A program made the position numbers and the translations under genes. A DNA stretch of 40,002 bases from a virus. The stretch spans positions 1 through 40,002 of the IMG/VR virus record IMGVR_UViG_3300026533_000010. One strand, 5' to 3'. This document shows, one piece after another, positions 1 to 40,002 of this stretch (position 1 is its first letter; each line of letters opens with the position of its first letter). The notes below the pieces were generated by a model. That model made no database searches, was not told the origin of the DNA, and saw only the letters and a list, made by a program, of their open reading frames with translations.

Positions 1-127
1 CCCTTATTTAATAGCTTTTTTTTGTTAGCCATATCTTTAAAATTGTTCATTATATTTCCTTAGTTATTTTCTCACAAAGTCTCATTATTTCATTTTGAGC
101 TTTGTAGTCTCTTGTATCAAATACACT
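1..127. repeat. 127-bp terminal direct repeat, left copy
   Basis: These bases are identical to the last 127 bases of the window. The copy holds the 3' end of parA and the start of its partner gene. Joining the two copies makes the partition operon continuous, so the repeat most likely reflects a circular assembly or a circularly permuted molecule and not a biological terminal repeat. A length of 127 equals a common maximum assembly k-mer. Confidence 0.95.
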
Positions 128-682
128 ATTTCCATCAAAACCACTATTCTCATACGAGGCTCTACGAGTCATTATCCCACCGAATAATATGTTACCATTG
201 ATTATAGGGTCTATATCATCTGTTATCTGCTTTGTAGACCTTAGAGGGTGTATCATAGTGGCTACTAAGTGTGTAGGTACTGCTTGCTCTCTAATAGTCT
301 CTATTTCACCCAAAGTATCTAAGAAGCTCATAAAAGCCTCAGCATCTTTATCACTGCGAGGATTAAACGGTACTACTAGCTGGTCACTGATAGATATTAC
401 AGCTCTAGTGAGGTCATCATCAAAAGCACCAGTATCTATAAGTAAAATACCCTCATAATCCATAGCCTCAGATAGCTCATCAGCACTATAAATAGCCTGA
501 CACTGTATGCCAGTAATACCCTTTTTTTGTCTCTTTACAAAAAAGTTAAATGACCCCTTGTTTTTATGGTCAAGGTCTAAAACTTTTACTTTGTGACCCT
601 CTTTTGATAGGCTCACGGCTAGGTTAGTACATAGGGTGCTTTTTGCTACACCACCCTTAATCATCGCTAAAGTTATTATCAT
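50..682 (-). CDS. parA: ParA-type partition ATPase (small, type Ib-like)
   Basis: This is a 210-residue ATPase of the ParA/MinD family, which segregates low-copy plasmids together with a centromere-binding partner. A deviant Walker A motif, KGGVAKST, lies at residues 9-16, with the signature lysine at 9 and the P-loop lysine at 14. A Walker B-like strand ending in LLIDTGA lies near residue 80. It lacks the N-terminal helix-turn-helix of type Ia ParA, and its length is typical of type Ib. The stop codon overlaps the ATG of the RHH partner (TAATG) across the circular junction, so the two are translationally coupled. The ribosome site is AAGGACAG. Partition genes point to an extrachromosomal prophage stage, although ParA-like ATPases are also found in lytic phages. 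Confidence 0.93.
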   Translation of the reverse strand: MIITLAMIKGGVAKSTLCTNLAVSLSKEGHKVKVLDLDHKNKGSFNFFVKRQKKGITGIQCQAIYSADELSEAMDYEGILLIDTGAFDDDLTRAVISISDQLVVPFNPRSDKDAEAFMSFLDTLGEIETIREQAVPTHLVATMIHPLRSTKQITDDIDPIINGNILFGGIMTRRASYENSGFDGNSVFDTRDYKAQNEIMRLCEKITKEI

Positions 683-16769: not shown

Positions 16770-17282
16770 TTACTCGTTTTCTGCATCTATATAATCTTGT
16801 ATTTTTTTACTAAGACCTTTTTCTTTAATAGTTGCACCGTATTCAATACCGTAGTTATCAGCTATCTCTTTAAGCTCATCTAGGTCAGTAGGTAAACCGT
16901 AGTCATCAGCTATCTCTTTAAGCTCATCTAGGTCAGTAGGTAAACCGTAGTCATCAGCTATCTCTTTAAGCTCATCTAGGTCAGTAGGTAAACCGTAGTC
17001 ATCTGCATCAGTATCATCATCAGGGTTAATCCCAGTCTGACCATCTGCATTAGTTCCACCAGTATCACCAGCATTTGCTACATCAGAGTCAGTATCTTCT
17101 ACATCATCATCATCATATAAACCTACAAGCACTACACCCTTATCAACTGCATCAGCTAAAACTTTATTAGCTTTAAACTCAGCATTTGTAAGACCAGTAT
17201 CTCTAAACTCATCGTCTAGTAAGATTTTACCTATATAAAAAACACTCTTTTCTCTACCACTTTTTGCGAAAACATTACTCAT
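16770..17282 (-). CDS. Acidic repeat protein related to its upstream neighbour
   Basis: This is a 170-residue protein. Residues 1-55 are closely similar to the next gene upstream (177 residues), including the identical FKANKVLADAVDKGV. An Asp-rich linker follows, then three exact copies of a 16-residue unit (GLPTDLDELKEIADDY) and a final diverged copy. The repeats look like short helices and suit a flexible decoration or head fibre. The ribosome site is AAGGACAG. Confidence 0.72.
   Translation of the reverse strand: MSNVFAKSGREKSVFYIGKILLDDEFRDTGLTNAEFKANKVLADAVDKGVVLVGLYDDDDVEDTDSDVANAGDTGGTNADGQTGINPDDDTDADDYGLPTDLDELKEIADDYGLPTDLDELKEIADDYGLPTDLDELKEIADNYGIEYGATIKEKGLSKKIQDYIDAENE
16861..17004 (-). 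repeat. Three tandem 48-bp repeats
   Basis: Three units of 48 bases follow each other; the third differs only at its last base. A partial copy with one change flanks them. The unit length is a multiple of three, so the copy number can vary without breaking the reading frame of the acidic protein. Confidence 0.95.
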
Positions 17283-17293
17283 AATAACTGTCC

Positions 17294-17827
17294 TTATTCT
17301 TTAATTTCTAAGTGAAAATTAACTGGCTTACCGTTGTTTTTCACTATATAGTCATTCACACCTTTTTCAAGGCATCTATATCTATATTCATTATTTACAA
17401 ATTCACGGTTAAACTCAGCTGTTTTGTCTTTATCAAAAGTTACAGTAATTGATTTAAACCACTCATACTCTCTCTTTAATACAATATCAGTAGGGTAAGT
17501 TTTATCAGTCAGTTTAAGTGCCTTAAATGCAATAATAGCATCTATATCTTCACCTATTGAGCCATAAGGCTCTATTGCTGACTCTTTACTTCTATAACCA
17601 TAGGCTCTATTTCCATCAGCTCCTACAGTCATTGATAAGTTTACCATCATAGGAGTAACAGTACCCCCTACTTGAATAACACCCTTATCAACTGCATCAG
17701 CTAAAACTTTATTAGCTTTAAATTGAGAGGGTAGCATTTTAGTATTAATAAACTTTTCATTAAAATAAAGCTTACCTACTCTAAAATGCTCACCTTTTCT
17801 ATTACTTCTAGCAAATACAGTAGCCAT
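17294..17827 (-). CDS. Decoration-like protein sharing modules with both neighbours
   Basis: This 177-residue protein shares its N-terminal 55 residues with the acidic repeat protein downstream. Its C-terminal 115 residues (MTVGADGNRAYGYRSKES and on) resemble the 180-residue protein upstream. It lies immediately after the capsid gene group, so a capsid decoration or head fibre function is likely. It may be an intermediate of gene duplication and exchange. Confidence 0.7.
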   Translation of the reverse strand: MATVFARSNRKGEHFRVGKLYFNEKFINTKMLPSQFKANKVLADAVDKGVIQVGGTVTPMMVNLSMTVGADGNRAYGYRSKESAIEPYGSIGEDIDAIIAFKALKLTDKTYPTDIVLKREYEWFKSITVTFDKDKTAEFNREFVNNEYRYRCLEKGVNDYIVKNNGKPVNFHLEIKE

Positions 17828-17830
17828 AAT

Positions 17831-18373
17831 TTAAACCTTAGCTCTAATTGCTAGAGGTACTGATTTACCCTCATTCTCTAAGAAATATCGTCTTAGTTGC
17901 TGGTCATCAGTGTTTTGATAGCGATATTCATCACCTACAAGAGTTCTTTTAAGCTCAATAGTCTCATCTTTACCATCATAACTAAACTCAATCAAAAGAC
18001 TCTCAATCCAGTTATGCTGAGTTGTTAAGATAATTTCAGTTTTTTGATAAGTTGCTTTTAAAATTCTAAGAGCTAAGATAATTTCTTCACCATCTGAAAT
18101 ATCACCATAAGCATCAAGCTCTGACTCTTCACCTCTGTAACCATAAGCTACATTTCCATCAGTTCCTACAGTTAAGTCAAACTGAAAAGCCTCTAGCTCA
18201 GGTGCATTAGAGCTGTCTATATTTAGCCACCCATTATCTAAAGCACCAGTGTGAGCTATGCTTGAGAAAAACTCATCATAGCTCATAGCTGTTTCTTTAA
18301 AATCAACCCCTACAGCTTGCCAACCAAGCTGATAAGGTCTCTCTGACTCACCTCGCTGTAAGATGATACCCAT
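17831..18373 (-). CDS. Decoration-like protein with VGxDGNxAYGYR module
   Basis: This 180-residue protein lies directly after the major capsid gene, two bases away. The C-terminal part carries LTVGTDGNVAYGYRGEES followed by a beta-sandwich-like run of alternating hydrophobic strands (IILALRILKA, EIILTT, LLIEFSYDG). The same module appears in the next gene. It may be a surface or adhesion domain. Function inferred from position. Confidence 0.68.
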   Translation of the reverse strand: MGIILQRGESERPYQLGWQAVGVDFKETAMSYDEFFSSIAHTGALDNGWLNIDSSNAPELEAFQFDLTVGTDGNVAYGYRGEESELDAYGDISDGEEIILALRILKATYQKTEIILTTQHNWIESLLIEFSYDGKDETIELKRTLVGDEYRYQNTDDQQLRRYFLENEGKSVPLAIRAKV

Positions 18374-18375
18374 AA

Positions 18376-19284
18376 CTAGATACCATCAGTAAACGAAATA
18401 GAGTAAGGCTGGTGTACTGCTACCCCAGCTGTCTGTAAGTACATAGGTACTTTGTAGCTTAGGTTAATCTCTTGTACAGCTAATACTTGTAATTCCTCAG
18501 GAATCTCAAGAGTAAAGTTATCAGGTGATTTGTTTACTGTTACCATACGGTCAGTACCACCAGCACCAGCACCCTTACACTCAGCATACGATTTGAAAAC
18601 AACGTTTAAGTTCATTTCACAAAAAGTTGCTACAGTAGTATCAGTACCATCAGCCATACGAGTAGATTTGAGGATAGCAAGCTTACTAGCTGGTAACCAA
18701 ATTTCGTTAGCCTCAAAAACACCTTTAGTAAGGTCAATTTGAGCAACTACAGTAGCTTGTACATCATCGTACATTTGTTGAGCTGTAGTAGTAGGATTAT
18801 CCCAGTTACCAGTGATAGCACTACCAGCTGGAATATTAGGAGCATTGAAAAAACCTTGTAATTTATACTTTTCATCACCTGACCAGGCAATCATATTTAA
18901 CTTTTGCTCTATCGCTTTTTGTGAAGCCATAGCTCTACGAGACTCTAAATCAATATTAGCTAAAGCTGAGCTTTTCACTTCTTTTACTGAATAAGCAAAA
19001 GCATTTCCAAGCATAGCTACCTTAACTTGATATTCTTCCATCACAGAGTCAGCTATAGGTAAATCATCACTAGCTGTAGCGATAATTTTCGCCTCACCAG
19101 TCTCATCAAATTGTCTAAAAGTGATATATTCAGCACCAGCATCACCCTCATAAGAAATAGGAAAAGCCTCACGAGCATTTAGCTGAGGTCTCTTATAGTC
19201 GAAAAGTCTATCAGAGATTTGATTAAGTTGCTGGTCTAAAAATAGAGACTCTTGAGCATCTAAGTGTGTAATTATTTTTTGCAT
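18376..19284 (-). CDS. Major capsid protein (DUF2184-like)
   Basis: This 302-residue protein resembles DUF2184 capsid proteins of the HK97 fold: an N-terminal helical arm (LDQQLNQISDRLFDYKR), RMGITFRQFDE-like strands around residue 55, an SVKEVKSSALANIDLESRRA spine helix, ANEIWLPASKLAIL, and a C-terminal beta part with PMYLQTAGVAVHQP. The gene follows the protease and cement genes in the usual order. Confidence 0.88.
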   Translation of the reverse strand: MQKIITHLDAQESLFLDQQLNQISDRLFDYKRPQLNAREAFPISYEGDAGAEYITFRQFDETGEAKIIATASDDLPIADSVMEEYQVKVAMLGNAFAYSVKEVKSSALANIDLESRRAMASQKAIEQKLNMIAWSGDEKYKLQGFFNAPNIPAGSAITGNWDNPTTTAQQMYDDVQATVVAQIDLTKGVFEANEIWLPASKLAILKSTRMADGTDTTVATFCEMNLNVVFKSYAECKGAGAGGTDRMVTVNKSPDNFTLEIPEELQVLAVQEINLSYKVPMYLQTAGVAVHQPYSISFTDGI

Positions 19285-20835: not shown

Positions 20836-21348
20836 TTAAGCCTTTTTACTATCCATTCTGCGACCACCAGTACGACTAGAGGCACTTAGTCCATCTTTAC
20901 GAGCCGAGTCCTCATATTCTAGTCTTTGCTCGTCTCTTATTTTTCTCTCAGAGTCCTCAAAAACTCTACGGGCTGTATCTTTTTCAGCACCTCTTAAAAT
21001 TCTATCATTCCAGCCTTTATAGTAGAAATCTACATACCAGCCCTCACCCTTTACAAAACCCATAACAACTTTAGCACCATCATAGCCATTATATGTAATT
21101 AATACTTGACCAGTTCCTATACTGCTACTATCTTTACGAGCTGAGTCATAATTCATAAGCTCTTGAAGTAGTGGTGTATCAGTAACTACACTACCCTCAG
21201 TATCGCCAAATAAAGCATTGTTATCGCCTATTACATACCAAGTGTTACCTCTTTTTTCATAAAATATATTTCCTAGTTTTACAAGCTTATCAGCATCTTT
21301 ACGACCTATAGCACCAGCTGAGAGGCTGGCTTTATCATATCGTTTCAT
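20836..21348 (-). CDS. Small modular head-region protein
   Basis: This 170-residue protein carries a module FYEKRGNTWYVIGD...TPLLQELMNYDS that is also present in the 668-residue protein upstream. It includes several short linkers of the type SARKDS or SERKIRD. The C-terminus is very basic and probably disordered. Its stop and start overlap with neighbours in the packaging-head operon. Function unknown; a minor virion component is likely. Confidence 0.68.
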   Translation of the reverse strand: MKRYDKASLSAGAIGRKDADKLVKLGNIFYEKRGNTWYVIGDNNALFGDTEGSVVTDTPLLQELMNYDSARKDSSSIGTGQVLITYNGYDGAKVVMGFVKGEGWYVDFYYKGWNDRILRGAEKDTARRVFEDSERKIRDEQRLEYEDSARKDGLSASSRTGGRRMDSKKA

Positions 21349-23354
21349 TACAGCTCTCTCATCATATTGTTAAGCTCTGAGTAGTTTAAATCGCCATCAG
21401 TCCAAGAGATACCATCAGGAGTAGCACCACTAAGACCAGCATAAGCTACAAAGTCTTTATATGTACCATTGTTAGCCTCAGCCATATACTCTTGAGCCAT
21501 TTGATATAGACCGTAATCGTTACCTATCCATAAAGCCACATTCCAAGTAGCACGGTTAGCCCAGCCATTGTACTCATCTTTTCTCTCTTCATCAGTACGG
21601 TCAGCTGAGTCATTACGATACTCTTGAAATTCTTGATTAAGTGAGTTATAGTCTAAATCAGGGTCAGTCCAGCTAACACCATCAGGTGTAGAGCCACTTA
21701 AACCAGCATAACCAATAAAGTCACGGTAAGTAGGGTTACTAGCACTCTTAGCATACTCTACGGCTGTTTGATAGATACCATAGTCATTAGCAATCCATAG
21801 AGAAACATTCCAGCTCTCATAGTTTTTGTGACCATTGTATGACTCATCAGCTCTAATAGCTTTAAATGTAGGCATTTTAGAGTCAAGATTTACTTTAGCA
21901 TCTTTATTCTCTTCTTTAGGTGCTGGTTTCTCTTCTTTTTTCTCTTTTTCTATAGGGTTACCATCTGCATCAAGCTCAGGCTCATCATCTTCTTTTTTGT
22001 CTGCTGGTTTTTCCTCAGCATCAAAACGACCACTATTTCTATATTTCTCTAGTGCCTCTTTTGCTGAGTTTAAATTACCAAAAGTTTTACTTTTTTCTAC
22101 CACAGCACCACCTTTACCATCTGTAACAACTACTTTTAGACCCTGACCTGACACATCGTGAATAGCAATCCATTTTCCAGTATCAGGCGATAATTTACCA
22201 GTTTCTAAATTTTGAGAATTAGATATACCATCAGCTCTCTCAGATAAATCTATATTATGTCTCTTAGCAAATAGCATAGCCTGAGGCTCTGAGTCAAACC
22301 GTTTCTCATAAGCATCTGTTTTAAGTAAGTATTGTTTACCATCTTGTTTAAGTGTATTCATTGTTTTTCCTTGAGTTTGTTTTGAGTCATAATTCATAAG
22401 CTCTTGTAGTAGTGGTGTCGAGGTAACTTCTTTACCTTTTTCATCAGAGAAAAATTTATCTTTATCTCCTATCTCATACCATTTACCGTTCACTTTTTCA
22501 TAAAATACACCACCAAGAGTAACCGTGCTTGCATCGCTACGAGCTGAGTCATATCCTACTAGGTCATACTGTAGTGCAATTCTTCTACCTAGAGTATCTG
22601 AGTCTTGTTTAGGTGTAAAACCATCGACCTCAGTAGAGCCATCAGGATTAAGTACATAATAATAATTTGCACTACTATCACTCTGCACTATTACTCTCAT
22701 ACCGTTTGACAATTTCTTATCAAAATCAGTTACAATAGTTTCACCACCTTGACCAGTAGCTCCACTATTCCAAGCTTGAATACTGTCTTTACGAGCATCA
22801 GCACGAGCTGAGTCATATCCTACTAGGTCATACTGTAGTGCAATTCTTCTACCTAGAGTATCTGAGTCTTGTTTAGGTGTAAAACCATCGACCTCAGTAG
22901 AGCCATCAGGGTTAAGTACATAGTAATAATTTGTACTACTATCACTCTGTACTATCACTCTCATACCGTTTGATAATTTCTTATCAAAATCAGTAGTTAT
23001 TTTCTCACCACCCATACCAGTAGCTCCACTATTCCAAGCTTGAATACTGTCTTTACGAGCATCATCCATCAGCTGACCTCTACTCAAATTCATAGGTGCT
23101 ATAATTCTTTGATACCAAGCATCTCTCTCTGAGCCTGAGAATTGAGTCATTAACTCTCTCTCAGCTTGCACATCGTATTTACCACGACCTACCTCATAGT
23201 GAATATTATTAAGCACATAAGCCATAGTAGCACTAGGGTTTTCTCTCACTGTAGCCTTAGCTATATCCTCTATTGTACTAACCATTCTAAAAGTGTCTAC
23301 TGCATCAGCACGACCTAGTGATTTTCGCTTGTTTTTATTACTAAATAAGCCCAT
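21348..23354 (-). CDS. Modular repeat protein of the head region
   Basis: This is a 668-residue mosaic. It contains two nearly identical 88-residue units (about residues 97-272) with ARKDSIQAWNSGATG and GFTPKQDSDTLGRRIALQYD, one FYEK...LQELMNYDS module shared with the next gene, a KEDDEPELDADGN acidic linker, and two C-terminal domains with W-NVxLWI-NDYG (one reading NRATWNVALW) that also occur in an early gene at 34399. Short RxDS or RKD linkers join the units. I know no characterised homologue. It could be a minor capsid, ejection or DNA-binding protein. Confidence 0.72.
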   Translation of the reverse strand: MGLFSNKNKRKSLGRADAVDTFRMVSTIEDIAKATVRENPSATMAYVLNNIHYEVGRGKYDVQAERELMTQFSGSERDAWYQRIIAPMNLSRGQLMDDARKDSIQAWNSGATGMGGEKITTDFDKKLSNGMRVIVQSDSSTNYYYVLNPDGSTEVDGFTPKQDSDTLGRRIALQYDLVGYDSARADARKDSIQAWNSGATGQGGETIVTDFDKKLSNGMRVIVQSDSSANYYYVLNPDGSTEVDGFTPKQDSDTLGRRIALQYDLVGYDSARSDASTVTLGGVFYEKVNGKWYEIGDKDKFFSDEKGKEVTSTPLLQELMNYDSKQTQGKTMNTLKQDGKQYLLKTDAYEKRFDSEPQAMLFAKRHNIDLSERADGISNSQNLETGKLSPDTGKWIAIHDVSGQGLKVVVTDGKGGAVVEKSKTFGNLNSAKEALEKYRNSGRFDAEEKPADKKEDDEPELDADGNPIEKEKKEEKPAPKEENKDAKVNLDSKMPTFKAIRADESYNGHKNYESWNVSLWIANDYGIYQTAVEYAKSASNPTYRDFIGYAGLSGSTPDGVSWTDPDLDYNSLNQEFQEYRNDSADRTDEERKDEYNGWANRATWNVALWIGNDYGLYQMAQEYMAEANNGTYKDFVAYAGLSGATPDGISWTDGDLNYSELNNMMREL
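22539..23066 (-). repeat. 264-bp tandem duplication within the modular protein gene
   Basis: Two copies, 22539-22802 and 22803-23066, are nearly identical with scattered synonymous and single changes. The unit encodes 88 residues in frame. The few differences suggest a fairly recent duplication or gene conversion. Confidence 0.92.
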
Positions 23355-34159: not shown

Positions 34160-34399
34160 TCATTCCTTATCTAAATATTGCTCATATAATCTACGAGGCT
34201 TTACACCACCACCTAGCACACTGCTATCACCAGTGACATAAACCAAACCATCATCAGGCTTTAAGTACCGTACTGAGTCTCTATGAGACTCGTGTATCTT
34301 TTGTATAGTGGTCTTATGAGGTGTAATCTCACTACCATTAAAACCGTGTATCACTTGAGTTACATATAACCCATCCTCTCTCATTTCATATACTAGCAT
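34160..34399 (-). CDS. Unknown small protein
   Basis: This is a 79-residue protein with a beta-rich start (DGLYVTQVIHGFNG) and a Gly-rich turn (VLGGGVKPRR). Its ATG overlaps the upstream stop (TGATG). No family recognised. Confidence 0.62.
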   Translation of the reverse strand: MLVYEMREDGLYVTQVIHGFNGSEITPHKTTIQKIHESHRDSVRYLKPDDGLVYVTGDSSVLGGGVKPRRLYEQYLDKE

Positions 34400-34668
34400 C
34401 AGTCCACACCCCCCAGCTCACATATCACTGTATTTAGCTGAGTATGGTCTAAGTCCTCACTATCCCATAAATAACCATCAGGAGTCTTAGCCTGAGTATT
34501 TAGCTTTTGCTTGTTTCTCAGCCACCCTATATAGCTGGGTATTCTATCTCTATCTATCTCAAAGAGACAGTAAGCACAAACACCCTTATACAGTGTCTCA
34601 TCGTTTGCCAGCCATAAAGCTACATTCCAAGTAGCTCTATTTGTATAACCGTTATATGTATCACTCAT
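34399..34668 (-). CDS. DUF7249-like domain protein
   Basis: This 89-residue protein consists of the domain with NRATWNVALWLANDETLY and TPDGYLWDSEDLD. The same domain appears twice at the C-terminus of the 668-residue structural-region protein. The ribosome site is TAAGGA. Because it stands alone in the early region, it may be a small regulatory or binding domain used in two contexts. Confidence 0.72.
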   Translation of the reverse strand: MSDTYNGYTNRATWNVALWLANDETLYKGVCAYCLFEIDRDRIPSYIGWLRNKQKLNTQAKTPDGYLWDSEDLDHTQLNTVICELGGVD

Positions 34669-34672
34669 AATA

Positions 34673-34891
34673 TTAATCCTTATTCCATTTAGCTCTAAGT
34701 TCTAGCTCTTTTGCTCTTACTTTATCCACTTCATCACCCTCAAGGTCACAAAATAGAGTATAAAACTCATCAGGTAAACCACTAGCTGACTCATTCAGCT
34801 CGTAGTCAGTACCTATCTCATCATCAAACCACTTATTAAACTCTTTGATTTGACTACCAGTGTAATCATCCTCAGTCTCATAATATTCCAT
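34673..34891 (-). CDS. Unknown small acidic protein
   Basis: This 72-residue acidic protein starts MEYYETEDDYTG. I choose this start because GAGGG lies eight bases upstream and the upstream stop codon is one base away; an earlier in-frame ATG would overlap that gene by 53 bases. The C-terminal half is helical. No family recognised. Confidence 0.62.
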   Translation of the reverse strand: MEYYETEDDYTGSQIKEFNKWFDDEIGTDYELNESASGLPDEFYTLFCDLEGDEVDKVRAKELELRAKWNKD

Positions 34892-35511: not shown

Positions 35512-35774
35512 AATATCATTCCTTAATATATGTTATCAGTAGCTCTAAAGCTACTCAGTCACACACACGAGGTATCAGCTACTACTTAGACTGGCTGATA
35601 TTGATTTTACCCTTAGTCTCAAGTGAGGGTTAAAAAGTCAAAAAACTCGTTAGCTACTTGCTAACTTGAACTGACAGTATGACACGGAAAAGCTTAACAA
35701 CTTCTTAATAACAATTAACTTTAGTAGTATGTTTGTGATATAATACATCATAACATATCAGATAAGGACTTAAA
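35512..35774. promoter_or_regulatory. Divergent control region
   Basis: On the plus strand an extended -10, TG-A-TATAAT (hexamer at 35739-35744), drives the plus-strand gene; TGATAT-like repeats follow to the AAGGAC ribosome site. Leftward, toward the operon at 35511, there is a 7-bp hairpin AGTAGCT/AGCTACT near the gene. Two more hairpins lie between: a TTTTACCCT/AGGGTTAAAA pair with one bulged base, and GTTAGC/GCTAAC. These could terminate or insulate the divergent transcripts. The leftward promoter itself is not clear. Confidence 0.55.
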
Positions 35775-36413
35775 ATGAAGTGGACTAAAGAGACAATAGC
35801 ACTAGAGGCTAAGAAGTATTTGACTAGGACTGACTTTTCAAAAGGTAGTAATGTAGCCTACAAAAAGGCACTTGAGCTAGATATACTGGATAATGTTTGT
35901 AGACATATTAGGCTAGGTAGTCATCAAGAGTGGACTAAAGAGAGTATATTACTATATGCCAGCCACTATGAGTATTTAAGCGATTTTAGAAGAGATTATC
36001 CTACAGCTCTTGCTAAATCAGTGCAACTAGGAATAAGAGACCAAATAAAACTTAAACAAGCTGGAAAAGGTGCTGTATTAGACACTATTTATATATTTAA
36101 ACAACTTGACTCTAAGCCATACAAGGGGTGTGAGTTATTTAAAATAGGTGTAAGCTCATCTAAGAGAAGAGTAGAGGGTAGAAAAGAGGAACTAGAGAAA
36201 AAAAACAAGATAAAGTTAGAAATTATAACCAGCTGTATAGTTGGTAAAAATGCACCTAAATTAGAAGTTATACTTTTACAGCTAGGTGTAAAAGGTAAAG
36301 AATATAATATATACGGTGGGTCTGAGTTTAGGTATTTATCTCTTAATGAATTAGATAAAGCACTAGAAATAATAACCCTATTTAAAAAAATAGGTGATAT
36401 TTTATCTAAGTGA
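35775..36413 (+). CDS. GIY-YIG superfamily (T5orf172-like) protein with two N-terminal repeats
   Basis: This is the only plus-strand gene. The 212-residue protein has two N-terminal repeats of about 40 residues (WTKETIALEAKKYLTRTDF and WTKESILLYASHYEYLSDF) like those attached to phage homing nucleases. A C-terminal domain then has DTIYIFKQLDSKPYKGCELFKIGVSS and R at the expected site, a GIY-YIG-like core with IYI and FKIG. It may be a homing endonuclease or a DNA-binding regulator. The ATG is preceded by TAAGGAC. Confidence 0.7.
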   Translation: MKWTKETIALEAKKYLTRTDFSKGSNVAYKKALELDILDNVCRHIRLGSHQEWTKESILLYASHYEYLSDFRRDYPTALAKSVQLGIRDQIKLKQAGKGAVLDTIYIFKQLDSKPYKGCELFKIGVSSSKRRVEGRKEELEKKNKIKLEIITSCIVGKNAPKLEVILLQLGVKGKEYNIYGGSEFRYLSLNELDKALEIITLFKKIGDILSK

Positions 36414-38076: not shown

Positions 38077-38223
38077 TTATTCATCTAGCTTAGCCTCATC
38101 ACGGTCAATATCACCCTTATCTGCTAGGTGGTTTTGATAATCCTCATACTCTTGCTCTCTATCTGTATCATCTGTATTCTCATCTACTTGTTTATCTAAG
38201 TAGTCATCGTATTCAAAACTCAT
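38077..38223 (-). CDS. 48-residue acidic protein
   Basis: This frame encodes MSFEYDDYLDKQVDEN at the start and is strongly acidic throughout (about 19 Asp/Glu), ending DEAKLDE. Its ATG overlaps the stop of the upstream gene (TAATG). Small acidic phage proteins can mimic DNA or bind host enzymes, but no function is shown. Confidence 0.62.
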   Translation of the reverse strand: MSFEYDDYLDKQVDENTDDTDREQEYEDYQNHLADKGDIDRDEAKLDE

Positions 38224-38435
38224 TATTTTATACCTCTAACTTTATACTCTACTGCTATCTCATCATCAGTAAAAGTAAACACTAGCTCACCTTTTACTTT
38301 TGAATAGTTCTTATCTCTAAGCTTATTCATTCTATTTTCTAACTCTTTTTGATACTCATAGTAGTTTATATTATTACTTTTACATATTGAAGTAATAATA
38401 TACTCAGTCATTATCTCGCTACTTGTTATATTCAT
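38223..38435 (-). CDS. Unknown small protein after the structured non-coding region
   Basis: This 70-residue protein has a helical start (SEIMTEYIITSICKSNN) and a beta-rich end (ELVFTFTDDEIAVEYKVRG). TAAGGAC precedes its ATG by ten bases. It is the first coding sequence after 632 non-coding bases, and a transcript starting near 39035 would carry that region as a 600-base leader. Confidence 0.65.
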   Translation of the reverse strand: MNITSSEIMTEYIITSICKSNNINYYEYQKELENRMNKLRDKNYSKVKGELVFTFTDDEIAVEYKVRGIK

Positions 38436-39040
38436 ATTTAAAGTCCTTATGTTATTCTCTTAAATTGTTATCAAATATTCGCTGAGCTGGCTAGTAGTGG
38501 GGTAAAACCACCCACCAGTCTATCAAACACCTCTTCACAGTACATTTAATAGCCTCACTCTATAATAGGCACGACCCTAAAAGTGAGCATTATTCCTAGT
38601 ACGACCTCTATGTATGCCTCTAGTGTCTCTGACCACAACTTAATATCGGACTTTACAAGACTTGAATAACGAGTGGTTAATATAGTAACCCCATTTCGTA
38701 ATTTTATTTTTAAGACTACGGCTTTTTAATTCCATTGTAGAATAACTGATTTATATTTCTCAAGCCCAGTCAGACTATAAAACGGCTTAACAGTGATAAA
38801 TTTAAGTGGTTATTTTTTTGTTGAAGTTGATATTTTTATTGAAGAATAATTGAGAGTGACCCTACCAAAAGACACTCATAATTATTCTCGCTTAGCACTA
38901 CCTCTAATTAAAGAAGTAGGACTTAGTGCCTTTTGGTAGGGCTAAGCGAAAATATTAACAAAACTAAGTTTAAAAATCTCAATATTAGTCAAACCCTCTT
39001 ACGAGGGCGAAGCTTTAAAGCTAGACTTGATATTGAGTGA
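38436..39040 (-). ncRNA. Large structured non-coding region, candidate RNA or origin
   Basis: No convincing gene lies in this stretch. The minus strand can fold into a three-way junction (39037-38978) made of an 8-bp outer stem, a 4-bp hairpin and CCCTC-GTAA-GAGGG with a GNRA loop. Next come a 9-bp stem (38941-38949 with 38888-38896) enclosing an 8-bp hairpin (38912-38919/38898-38905), and a 13-bp hairpin (38844-38887) whose 14-base loop is complementary over 12 bases to 38930-38941. Weaker stems continue to about 38490. Possible identities are a ROOL/GOLLD-like phage RNA, a replication primer RNA, or a regulatory leader. Confidence 0.65.
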
Positions 39041-39041
39041 C

Positions 39042-39070
39042 ATTATAACAAGTTTTTTATTAAAAGTCTA
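39042..39070 (-). promoter_or_regulatory. Promoter reading into the structured region
   Basis: On the minus strand TAGACT (39065-39070) and TATAAT (39042-39047) are 17 bases apart, and TG precedes the -10 by one base. The predicted start near 39035 coincides with the first base pairs of the three-way junction, which supports an RNA beginning there. The -35 overlaps the 3' end of the rusA gene. Confidence 0.65.
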
Positions 39071-39451
39071 CTTTTCCTCTATAAGCACTATAACCTCATC
39101 AATTTCTTGACCAGTATGTTTAGCTACTTGTAAAAAAGTTATCTGTTTGTCATTGACATATACTACACCCTCAAGAGCATCAAATAGTAGCTTGAGAATT
39201 GCATCTATATCAGGCTCTTTTTTCTTAGACTTGATACATAGGTCTATTTTCATTGATAAGCGACCCTCTAGCCTCTTATTAGCCTTTTGCCTTATACATT
39301 CCATCTGTATTAGCTTTGTAGACTCTCTACCCCCCTTAGTTTTAATTATAGAGGCTTTTCCAGTGGTCTTATTAATCACTGGCATATAGAGTTTGTTTAA
39401 AAGGGTAGGTAACTCTTTGAGCTGTAGTAATACTCGCTTATTCTTTTGCAT
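39068..39451 (-). CDS. rusA: RusA-type Holliday junction resolvase
   Basis: This is a 127-residue protein of the RusA family, which cuts four-way junctions with metal-dependent catalysis. Acidic residues lie at 81, 83, 91 and 101 in EPDIDAILKLLFDALEGVVYVNDKQI-type order (shown in two parts: PDIDAILK and DALEGVVYVND), with the conserved Lys at 87. The Asn usually found after the second Asp is Ala. It overlaps the gene upstream by 14 bases. Confidence 0.88.
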   Translation of the reverse strand: MQKNKRVLLQLKELPTLLNKLYMPVINKTTGKASIIKTKGGRESTKLIQMECIRQKANKRLEGRLSMKIDLCIKSKKKEPDIDAILKLLFDALEGVVYVNDKQITFLQVAKHTGQEIDEVIVLIEEK

Positions 39452-39644
39452 CTATCTCATCTAGGTCAATCTTTAAACCCTCTAAGCTCATCATCTTAAC
39501 ACCATCATCAAAACCACTCACCATAAGCTCTATCATAATTCTCTTGTTTTCTTTTTGCTGGTCATTCTCTATAGGGTGATTAGCCATAAGTAGGTCTAGG
39601 TATAGTCTGTAATCGTGGATATTCTCTATGCTTACTATTTTCAT
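39438..39644 (-). CDS. Unknown small protein between partition and rusA genes
   Basis: This 68-residue acidic helical protein begins MKIVSIENIHDYRLYLDLL. Its ATG overlaps the stop of the RHH partner gene (TAATG), and its own end overlaps rusA. No family recognised; co-translation suggests it belongs to the partition operon. Confidence 0.65.
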   Translation of the reverse strand: MKIVSIENIHDYRLYLDLLMANHPIENDQQKENKRIMIELMVSGFDDGVKMMSLEGLKIDLDEIDAKE

Positions 39645-39925
39645 TAGTCTTTATATCCCATAAGTTCACTGGTAGTTATAGTTCTTTTCTCTTTTTCTTC
39701 TCTCAATAGCCCTAGAGCATACTTGAGTATCTTACCACGAGGCACATCAGGAAAATGATATTTAAGCTGGGTTAATAGCTCCATATCATCAGCATCAAAA
39801 TAGATACTAATTTGTGACCCTTTTCGTACTTCCATAGCATTAGGCTCTACCCTCTTTTGAGTAGCACCAGCACCACCCTTATTTAATAGCTTTTTTTTGT
39901 TAGCCATATCTTTAAAATTGTTCAT
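39644..39925 (-). CDS. RHH centromere-binding partner of ParA (ParB/ParG-like)
   Basis: This 93-residue protein has a basic, flexible N-terminus (KKKLLNKGGAGATQKR) and a C-terminal ribbon-helix-helix-like part (QISIYFDADDMELLTQLKYH, RGKILKYALGLL). Small RHH partners with a flexible basic arm are typical of type Ib partition, and the arm can stimulate the ATPase. The ATG overlaps the parA stop across the window ends. A second Met at residue 7 is an alternative start. Confidence 0.75.
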   Translation of the reverse strand: MNNFKDMANKKKLLNKGGAGATQKRVEPNAMEVRKGSQISIYFDADDMELLTQLKYHFPDVPRGKILKYALGLLREEKEKRTITTSELMGYKD

Positions 39926-40002
39926 TATATTTCCTTAGTTATTTTCTCACAAAGTCTCATTATTTCATTTTGAGCTTTGTAGTCTCTTGTATCAAATACA
40001 CT
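39876..40002. repeat. 127-bp terminal direct repeat, right copy
   Basis: This is identical to bases 1-127 and marks the point where the circle was opened. It includes the first codons of the RHH partner gene and the 3' end of parA. Confidence 0.95.

Follow-up and report, generated by a model that had tools for sequence, protein, structure and literature searches.

What is encoded in a gene-free stretch of 632 bp in a phage genome with few other gaps? The window, the whole stretch of DNA analysed here (40,002 nucleotides; positions 1 to 40,002 of IMG/VR record IMGVR_UViG_3300026533_000010), carries the gene set of a contractile-tailed phage, with tail sheath, baseplate, capsid, portal and terminase recognised in PHROGs and Pfam scans. 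Bases 1-127 recur exactly at 39876-40002; this 127-bp terminal direct repeat indicates a complete circular assembly, with a unique genome length of 39,875 bp. The preliminary description had called positions 38436-39067 gene-free in a phage otherwise poor in gaps, and this stands in outline: the stretch contains no ORF of at least 50 aa and is the largest gap in the genome, followed by gaps of 263 and 242 nt. Searches of the gap returned no tRNA and no Rfam match, either at the gathering score or at E 10, and its coding potential and codon statistics are close to the shuffled level. A 70-aa ORF of unknown function lies directly downstream (38223-38435, minus strand). The second-largest gap, 35512-35774 (263 nt), contains palindromes.

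Partition genes beside the gap

Upstream of the gap, across the circle junction, lies a gene for a ParA-family partition ATPase (phrog_164; 50-682, minus strand). It joins across the terminal repeat to the gene of a small protein (39644-39925, minus strand) with no HMM match, for which single-sequence prediction gives a strand-helix-helix fold (pLDDT 68) and which is probably a ribbon-helix-helix partner of ParA. Just upstream of the gap is a RusA-like Holliday junction resolvase gene (39068-39451, minus strand). PHROGs and Pfam scans, covering all but some small ORFs, detected neither an integrase nor a recognised replication initiator or Rep in this phage or in the second carrier of the element described below. 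Structural genes together with ParA and, within the reach of these scans, no integrase are the gene content of a phage-plasmid. The presence of ParA and the strand-helix-helix protein, with no integrase and no recognised initiator, suggests a plasmid-type prophage.

Plasmids of Nitrosophilus and Campylobacter are among the top matches of ParA (30-33% amino acid identity), and one Nitratifractor metagenome-assembled genome holds a related terminase (40%); these matches give a weak hint of a host among the Campylobacterota. Elsewhere in the window, a 163-aa GGDEF-domain protein (PF00990; 37151-37642) has an intact RIGGDEF motif and no other visible domain, and a phrog_871 domain occurs in both a virion-region protein (21348-23354) and a small early protein (34399-34668). 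Three adjacent genes at 16770-18373 resemble diverged copies; two share LTVGxDGNxAYGYR and one has in-frame repeats.

A conserved two-state element and its promoter

The structured part of the gap is compact. In 140-nt windows, against a genome background with a mean z of -0.5 (sd 1.2), a zone at about 38796-39030 reaches z-scores of -5.5 on the minus strand and -5.1 on the plus strand, whereas 38446-38795 stays at the level of shuffled DNA, with z of about 0. For the 203-nt 5' part z is -5.8 (200 shuffles), compared with -3.3 for the whole 632 nt. Strong structure is limited to the first 195 nt or so of the minus strand (39037-38843), and the remaining 400 nt or so are unremarkable; the distal gene-free part (38436-38842, minus strand; 407 nt) has no surplus structure and little conservation. 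To describe the 632 nt as one ornate RNA was thus an overstatement. Both strands fold about equally, so folding gives no direction. Fold outliers also occur within coding regions on the minus strand, at 34721-34860 (z about -5.1) and 18201-18340 (z about -4.3).

Read on the minus strand, the structured part begins with a segment that folds as a three-way junction (38978-39037), comprising P1 and two hairpins, one of them CCCUC-GUAA-GAGGG. It is followed by an unpaired stretch, UUAAA-YUUAGUUUUGUUAAUAUUUUC (38949-38978), and by a core of three inverted repeats that overlap and compete for the same strands, the most informative trait of the region and one that the preliminary description does not mention. 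Helix A (38889-38948) pairs CGCUUAG (38948-38942) with CUAAGCG (38895-38889), and helix B (38898-38919) pairs CUACUUC (38919-38913) with GAGGUAG (38904-38898). Hairpin C (38843-38888) is composed of AGAAUAAUU/AAUUAUUCU, an internal loop, GAGUG/CACUC and the 14-nt loop UCUUUUGGUAGGGU (38872-38859). The anti-loop CCCUACCAAAAG (38930-38941) is the perfect complement of loop positions 38871-38860 of hairpin C, with which it could form a kissing or pseudoknot contact or a long duplex. In the alternative state (38860-38941), 38941-38925 pairs with 38876-38860 as a 17-bp duplex, at the expense of both hairpin C and helix A.

A second carrier was found by scanning 2.9 million IMG/VR viral contigs for the inverted-repeat DNA pattern CCCTACCAAAAG-N50-80-CTTTTGGTAGGG, which yielded one contig, L313/G399, of 32,452 bp. 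L313 matches 38843-38976 with 74% identity over 134 query positions (E 4.5e-13). The element again occupies the largest gap (782 nt), about 1.6 kb downstream of parA and in the same direction, compared with about 1.0 kb downstream and co-directional in the window. Upstream of it lie ParA, a small ORF of RHH-like type and, within the par operon, a nuclease gene of Holliday-junction/VRR type; in the window, the RusA-like gene precedes the gap. The two phages share ParA (30% amino acid identity), SSB (59%) and small proteins but differ in the PHROG families of terminase, portal and capsid, which indicates that the element moves together with the par/early module. G399 is possibly a fragment. After its element, a small ORF (G399 18157-18387; L313 4643-4873) has an internal MNITS start like that of the 70-aa window ORF (MNITSSEI...), of which it is possibly a homologue. 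A gene related to the 16770-18373 set also lies beside the element in G399.

Other searches gave no further carrier. BLAST of the element in phage and plasmid records returned nothing, and a DNA search of 397 Campylobacterota genomes returned short chance matches only. In sets of 397 and 175 genomes the covariance model R1 had no match, a result that lacked a positive control and so is not evidence of absence; its matches in L265 (E 0.05) and L034 (E 0.2) lack the anti-loop and were rejected as chance. The 17-mer pattern alone gave four matches, all unrelated. Relatives sought through the terminase, RusA, portal, ParB-like and RecT proteins were distant phages only (best about 44% amino acid identity), in which the element is absent by blastn. 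Two sequences are therefore known to carry the element, and covariation rests on one comparison.

That comparison supports a conserved structured nucleic acid with compensatory changes, in partial agreement with the structured RNA of the preliminary description. The alignment was guided by hand, with two Ns inserted into L313 for alignment A8 (one for alignment A7) to keep the helix register; the pair counts depend on it, although the pairs are plain to see in the raw sequences. Over 136 core positions, all 23 scored pairs of helices A, B and C are standard in both sequences; seven are changed on both sides, none on one side, and none is broken. Three of 500 shuffles do equally well, and sliding partners gives 0-2; with two sequences and a hand-guided alignment containing inserted Ns, such shuffle numbers are indicative. 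Helix A becomes CUAAUAG/CUAUUAG in L313, with three of seven pairs changed on both sides. Helix B becomes CUACACU/AGUGUAG; its four scored pairs are invariant, and by hand alignment three further pairs are doubly changed. In hairpin C, GAGUG/CACUC is replaced by GUUGC/GCAAC (four of five pairs changed on both sides) around an invariant 14-nt loop. The 12-nt hairpin-loop sequence and its complement, the anti-loop, are invariant between the phages. The 17-bp duplex holds in both at all 17 pairs, with four of the five variable pairs changed on both sides, at a level equalled in 26 of 500 shuffles. Constrained folding gives the two states -39.6 and -39.9 kcal/mol in the window, where they are predicted to be nearly isoenergetic, and -35.3 and -39.6 kcal/mol in L313. 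It is close to certain that a conserved structured element exists, and its character as a conserved, compensated, two-state structure is almost certainly real.

Conservation is uneven outside the core. The unpaired stretch at 38949-38978 is nearly invariant in the alignment, and the short block AAUAACCACUUAAAUUUA just past the core (38797-38816) is 85% identical to L313 over 20 nt. The three-way junction form is not conserved; L313 has one 8-bp hairpin at the same place. The GNRA loop of the junction, earlier taken to support the minus-strand direction, is accordingly a weak argument, since the homologue has a plain hairpin and the strands fold equally.

The promoter also bears on direction. 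The previously noted minus-strand promoter with 17-bp spacing (39042-39070) is real as a pattern: TAGACT as the -35 (39070-39065), which the RusA-like gene overlaps with its stop codon, a 17-bp spacer and the extended -10 TGTTATAAT (39050-39042), in which the hexamer itself occupies 39047-39042. Genome-wide, two sites combine a perfect TATAAT with an upstream TG and a -35 matching at least 4/6; this is one, and the other precedes the sole large plus-strand gene (35775-36413; phrog_20046 match). The expected transcript start, 39036-39034, falls 1-3 nt from the first paired base of the three-way junction, close to it and not, as first described, exactly on it. An extended -10, TGATATACT, one of five TGNTATAMT sites in G399, sits at G399:19079 on the minus strand, at the upstream end of the element. 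Its presence at the same place in the homologue makes minus-strand transcription of the element likely. No minus-strand terminator was found, and no terminator-like site follows either fold state. Plus-strand promoter patterns over the element are weak and no commoner than chance, and none makes a convincing antisense promoter; TATTTT on the plus strand of the 38797-38816 block is possibly a weak -10 of a putative antisense RNA.

Possible functions of the element

The linkage to par, the lack of a recognised Rep or integrase and the likeness to mycobacteriophage origins discussed below lead us to propose a par-linked RNA-based prophage origin or copy-control RNA, to which we assign an even chance. 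In such a mechanism, a minus-strand RNA would begin at 39036-39034 and fold into the conserved switch of about 136 nt. In one state, helices A and B and hairpin C would form, and the 14-nt loop could contact the complementary anti-loop; in the other, the anti-loop and loop strands would form the 17-bp duplex, dismantling A and C. The transcript would then cross the gene-free distal part, with the fold deciding whether the RNA primes or permits initiation, and the element may spare the virus a dedicated start protein when it replicates as a plasmid. We infer transcription, its strand, priming, copy control and any antisense partner. Several points weigh against an RNA origin: only two sequences carry the element, the distal 400 nt or so, where a priming site would lie, are barely conserved, a small Rep may be hidden among the many unknown ORFs, neither a convincing antisense promoter nor a terminator was found, and the placement relative to parA differs from that in mycobacteriophages. 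The wider claim, that outside Actinobacteria a new RNA family alone both starts and controls how plasmid-type prophages replicate, through a two-state switch with a 12-nt loop and anti-loop, and is exchanged between virion types together with partition genes, is tentative and falls somewhat short of even.

The main rival, which we consider rather unlikely, is that the element forms a structured leader for the early genes downstream (38435 onward), which the promoter would drive and whose translation, stability or elongation the switch would control. The promoter aims at co-directional genes, and in both phages the element lies between par/nuclease and DNA-metabolism genes; however, the core ends 407 nt (window) or roughly 520-570 nt (L313) short of the next gene, and the next genes of the two phages are not clearly homologous. 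Classical attenuation is unlikely because no terminator-like site follows either state, and an attenuator was rejected on finding no terminator. The missing minus-strand terminator also counts against a stand-alone trans-acting RNA (an sRNA, decoy or anti-defence RNA) merely beside par, as does a par linkage kept through a change of head module, which suggests a role in maintenance; its own promoter, the z of -5.8 for the local fold and the invariant accessible UUGG loop would suit such an RNA, which we nonetheless judge improbable.

The element could instead act as single- or double-stranded DNA (an origin, primosome site or centromere), given the about equal folding of both strands and an invariant 12-bp inverted repeat that could be a protein site. 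This is quite improbable: the flanking helices covary, as a double-stranded site would have no need to, the conserved promoter favours a minus-strand RNA, and so, weakly, do three G-U versus no A-C among the helix pairs. There are no iterons or other direct repeats, on which ground an iteron origin was rejected. The window gap contains 0 epsilonproteobacterial DnaA boxes and neither element shows a cluster of them, so that a DnaA-box origin was set aside; single TTCAC cores occur near their expected number. The chance of a decayed gene with fortuitous palindromes is very small. A 56-codon open stretch (38558-38725) is slightly more coding-like than shuffles, but most of it has no start codon and it has no family match, and the helices are conserved and compensated in the second phage. 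For the core, a pseudogene is refuted by the homologue match (E 4.5e-13) and the compensated helices, again with no family match.

How replication starts in Rep-less plasmid-type prophages is largely an open question. A compact, conserved two-state RNA next to par in an unrelated group of phages, whose loop and anti-loop strands are defined, opens the idea of an RNA origin to testing by compensatory mutations, and the pairing-pattern search offers a handle for finding such origins, as neither Rfam nor BLAST against phage and plasmid records picks this one up.

Comparison with known systems

The suggested kinship to ROOL, GOLLD, HEARO or OLE finds no support, as the Rfam covariance search gave no match even at E 10. 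The element shares with these RNAs a place in a noncoding region of a phage or mobile element, whereas its structured part is about 195 nt. Its setting among partition genes and its conserved switch in pairing suggest a role in replication or copy control and speak against a large ornate RNA.

In the copy-control leader of I-complex plasmids (IncI-alpha/IncB), as far as titles cited within PMC10724649 describe it, a loop pseudoknot and competing structures occur. Similarly, the UUGG hairpin loop here has its complement in another segment of its own RNA, and structures compete; unlike what those titles describe, the complementarity is 12 nt, no rep gene is recognised downstream and Rfam gives no match. 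In ColE1 RNA II/RNA I, a structured promoter-proximal part with competing pairings precedes a long untranslated downstream part, and the fold of RNA II decides priming and hence initiation of replication. The element resembles RNA II in this layout; however, it has no Rfam match to RNA I or RNA II, and an antisense RNA, a priming site and Pol I priming are putative here.

The closest setting is that of mycobacteriophages with par but no integrase and no RepA, in which prophage replication depends on, and needs no more than, an ORF-less, RNA-expressing region of about 600 bp (PMC7157519). Such non-RepA par-linked origins, known from RedRock, Alma, Gladiator, LadyBird and Et2Brutus, express a noncoding RNA thought to prime or permit initiation, directly upstream of parA and in the opposite direction (PMC7157519). 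Deletion of the region in Alma and LadyBird is reported to leave plaques normal and to abolish stable lysogeny. Likewise, the gaps here are ORF-less, par-linked and of similar size (632 and 782 nt), near ParA-type genes with no Rep or integrase and with a predicted transcript of their own. The hosts and sequences are unrelated, however, no switch fold is reported in the mycobacteriophages, and the element lies about 1.0 or about 1.6 kb downstream of parA and co-directional with it. The three mycobacteriophage origins compared have no invariant complementary blocks of at least 7 nt among them and share no motif with the element, which also has no match in the phage collection. The RNA-based prophage origins that we found described, called the first by their authors (PMC7157519), come from mycobacteriophages only. 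The likeness of the element to these origins, to ColE1 and to the I-complex leader is best read as resemblance in kind, not membership.
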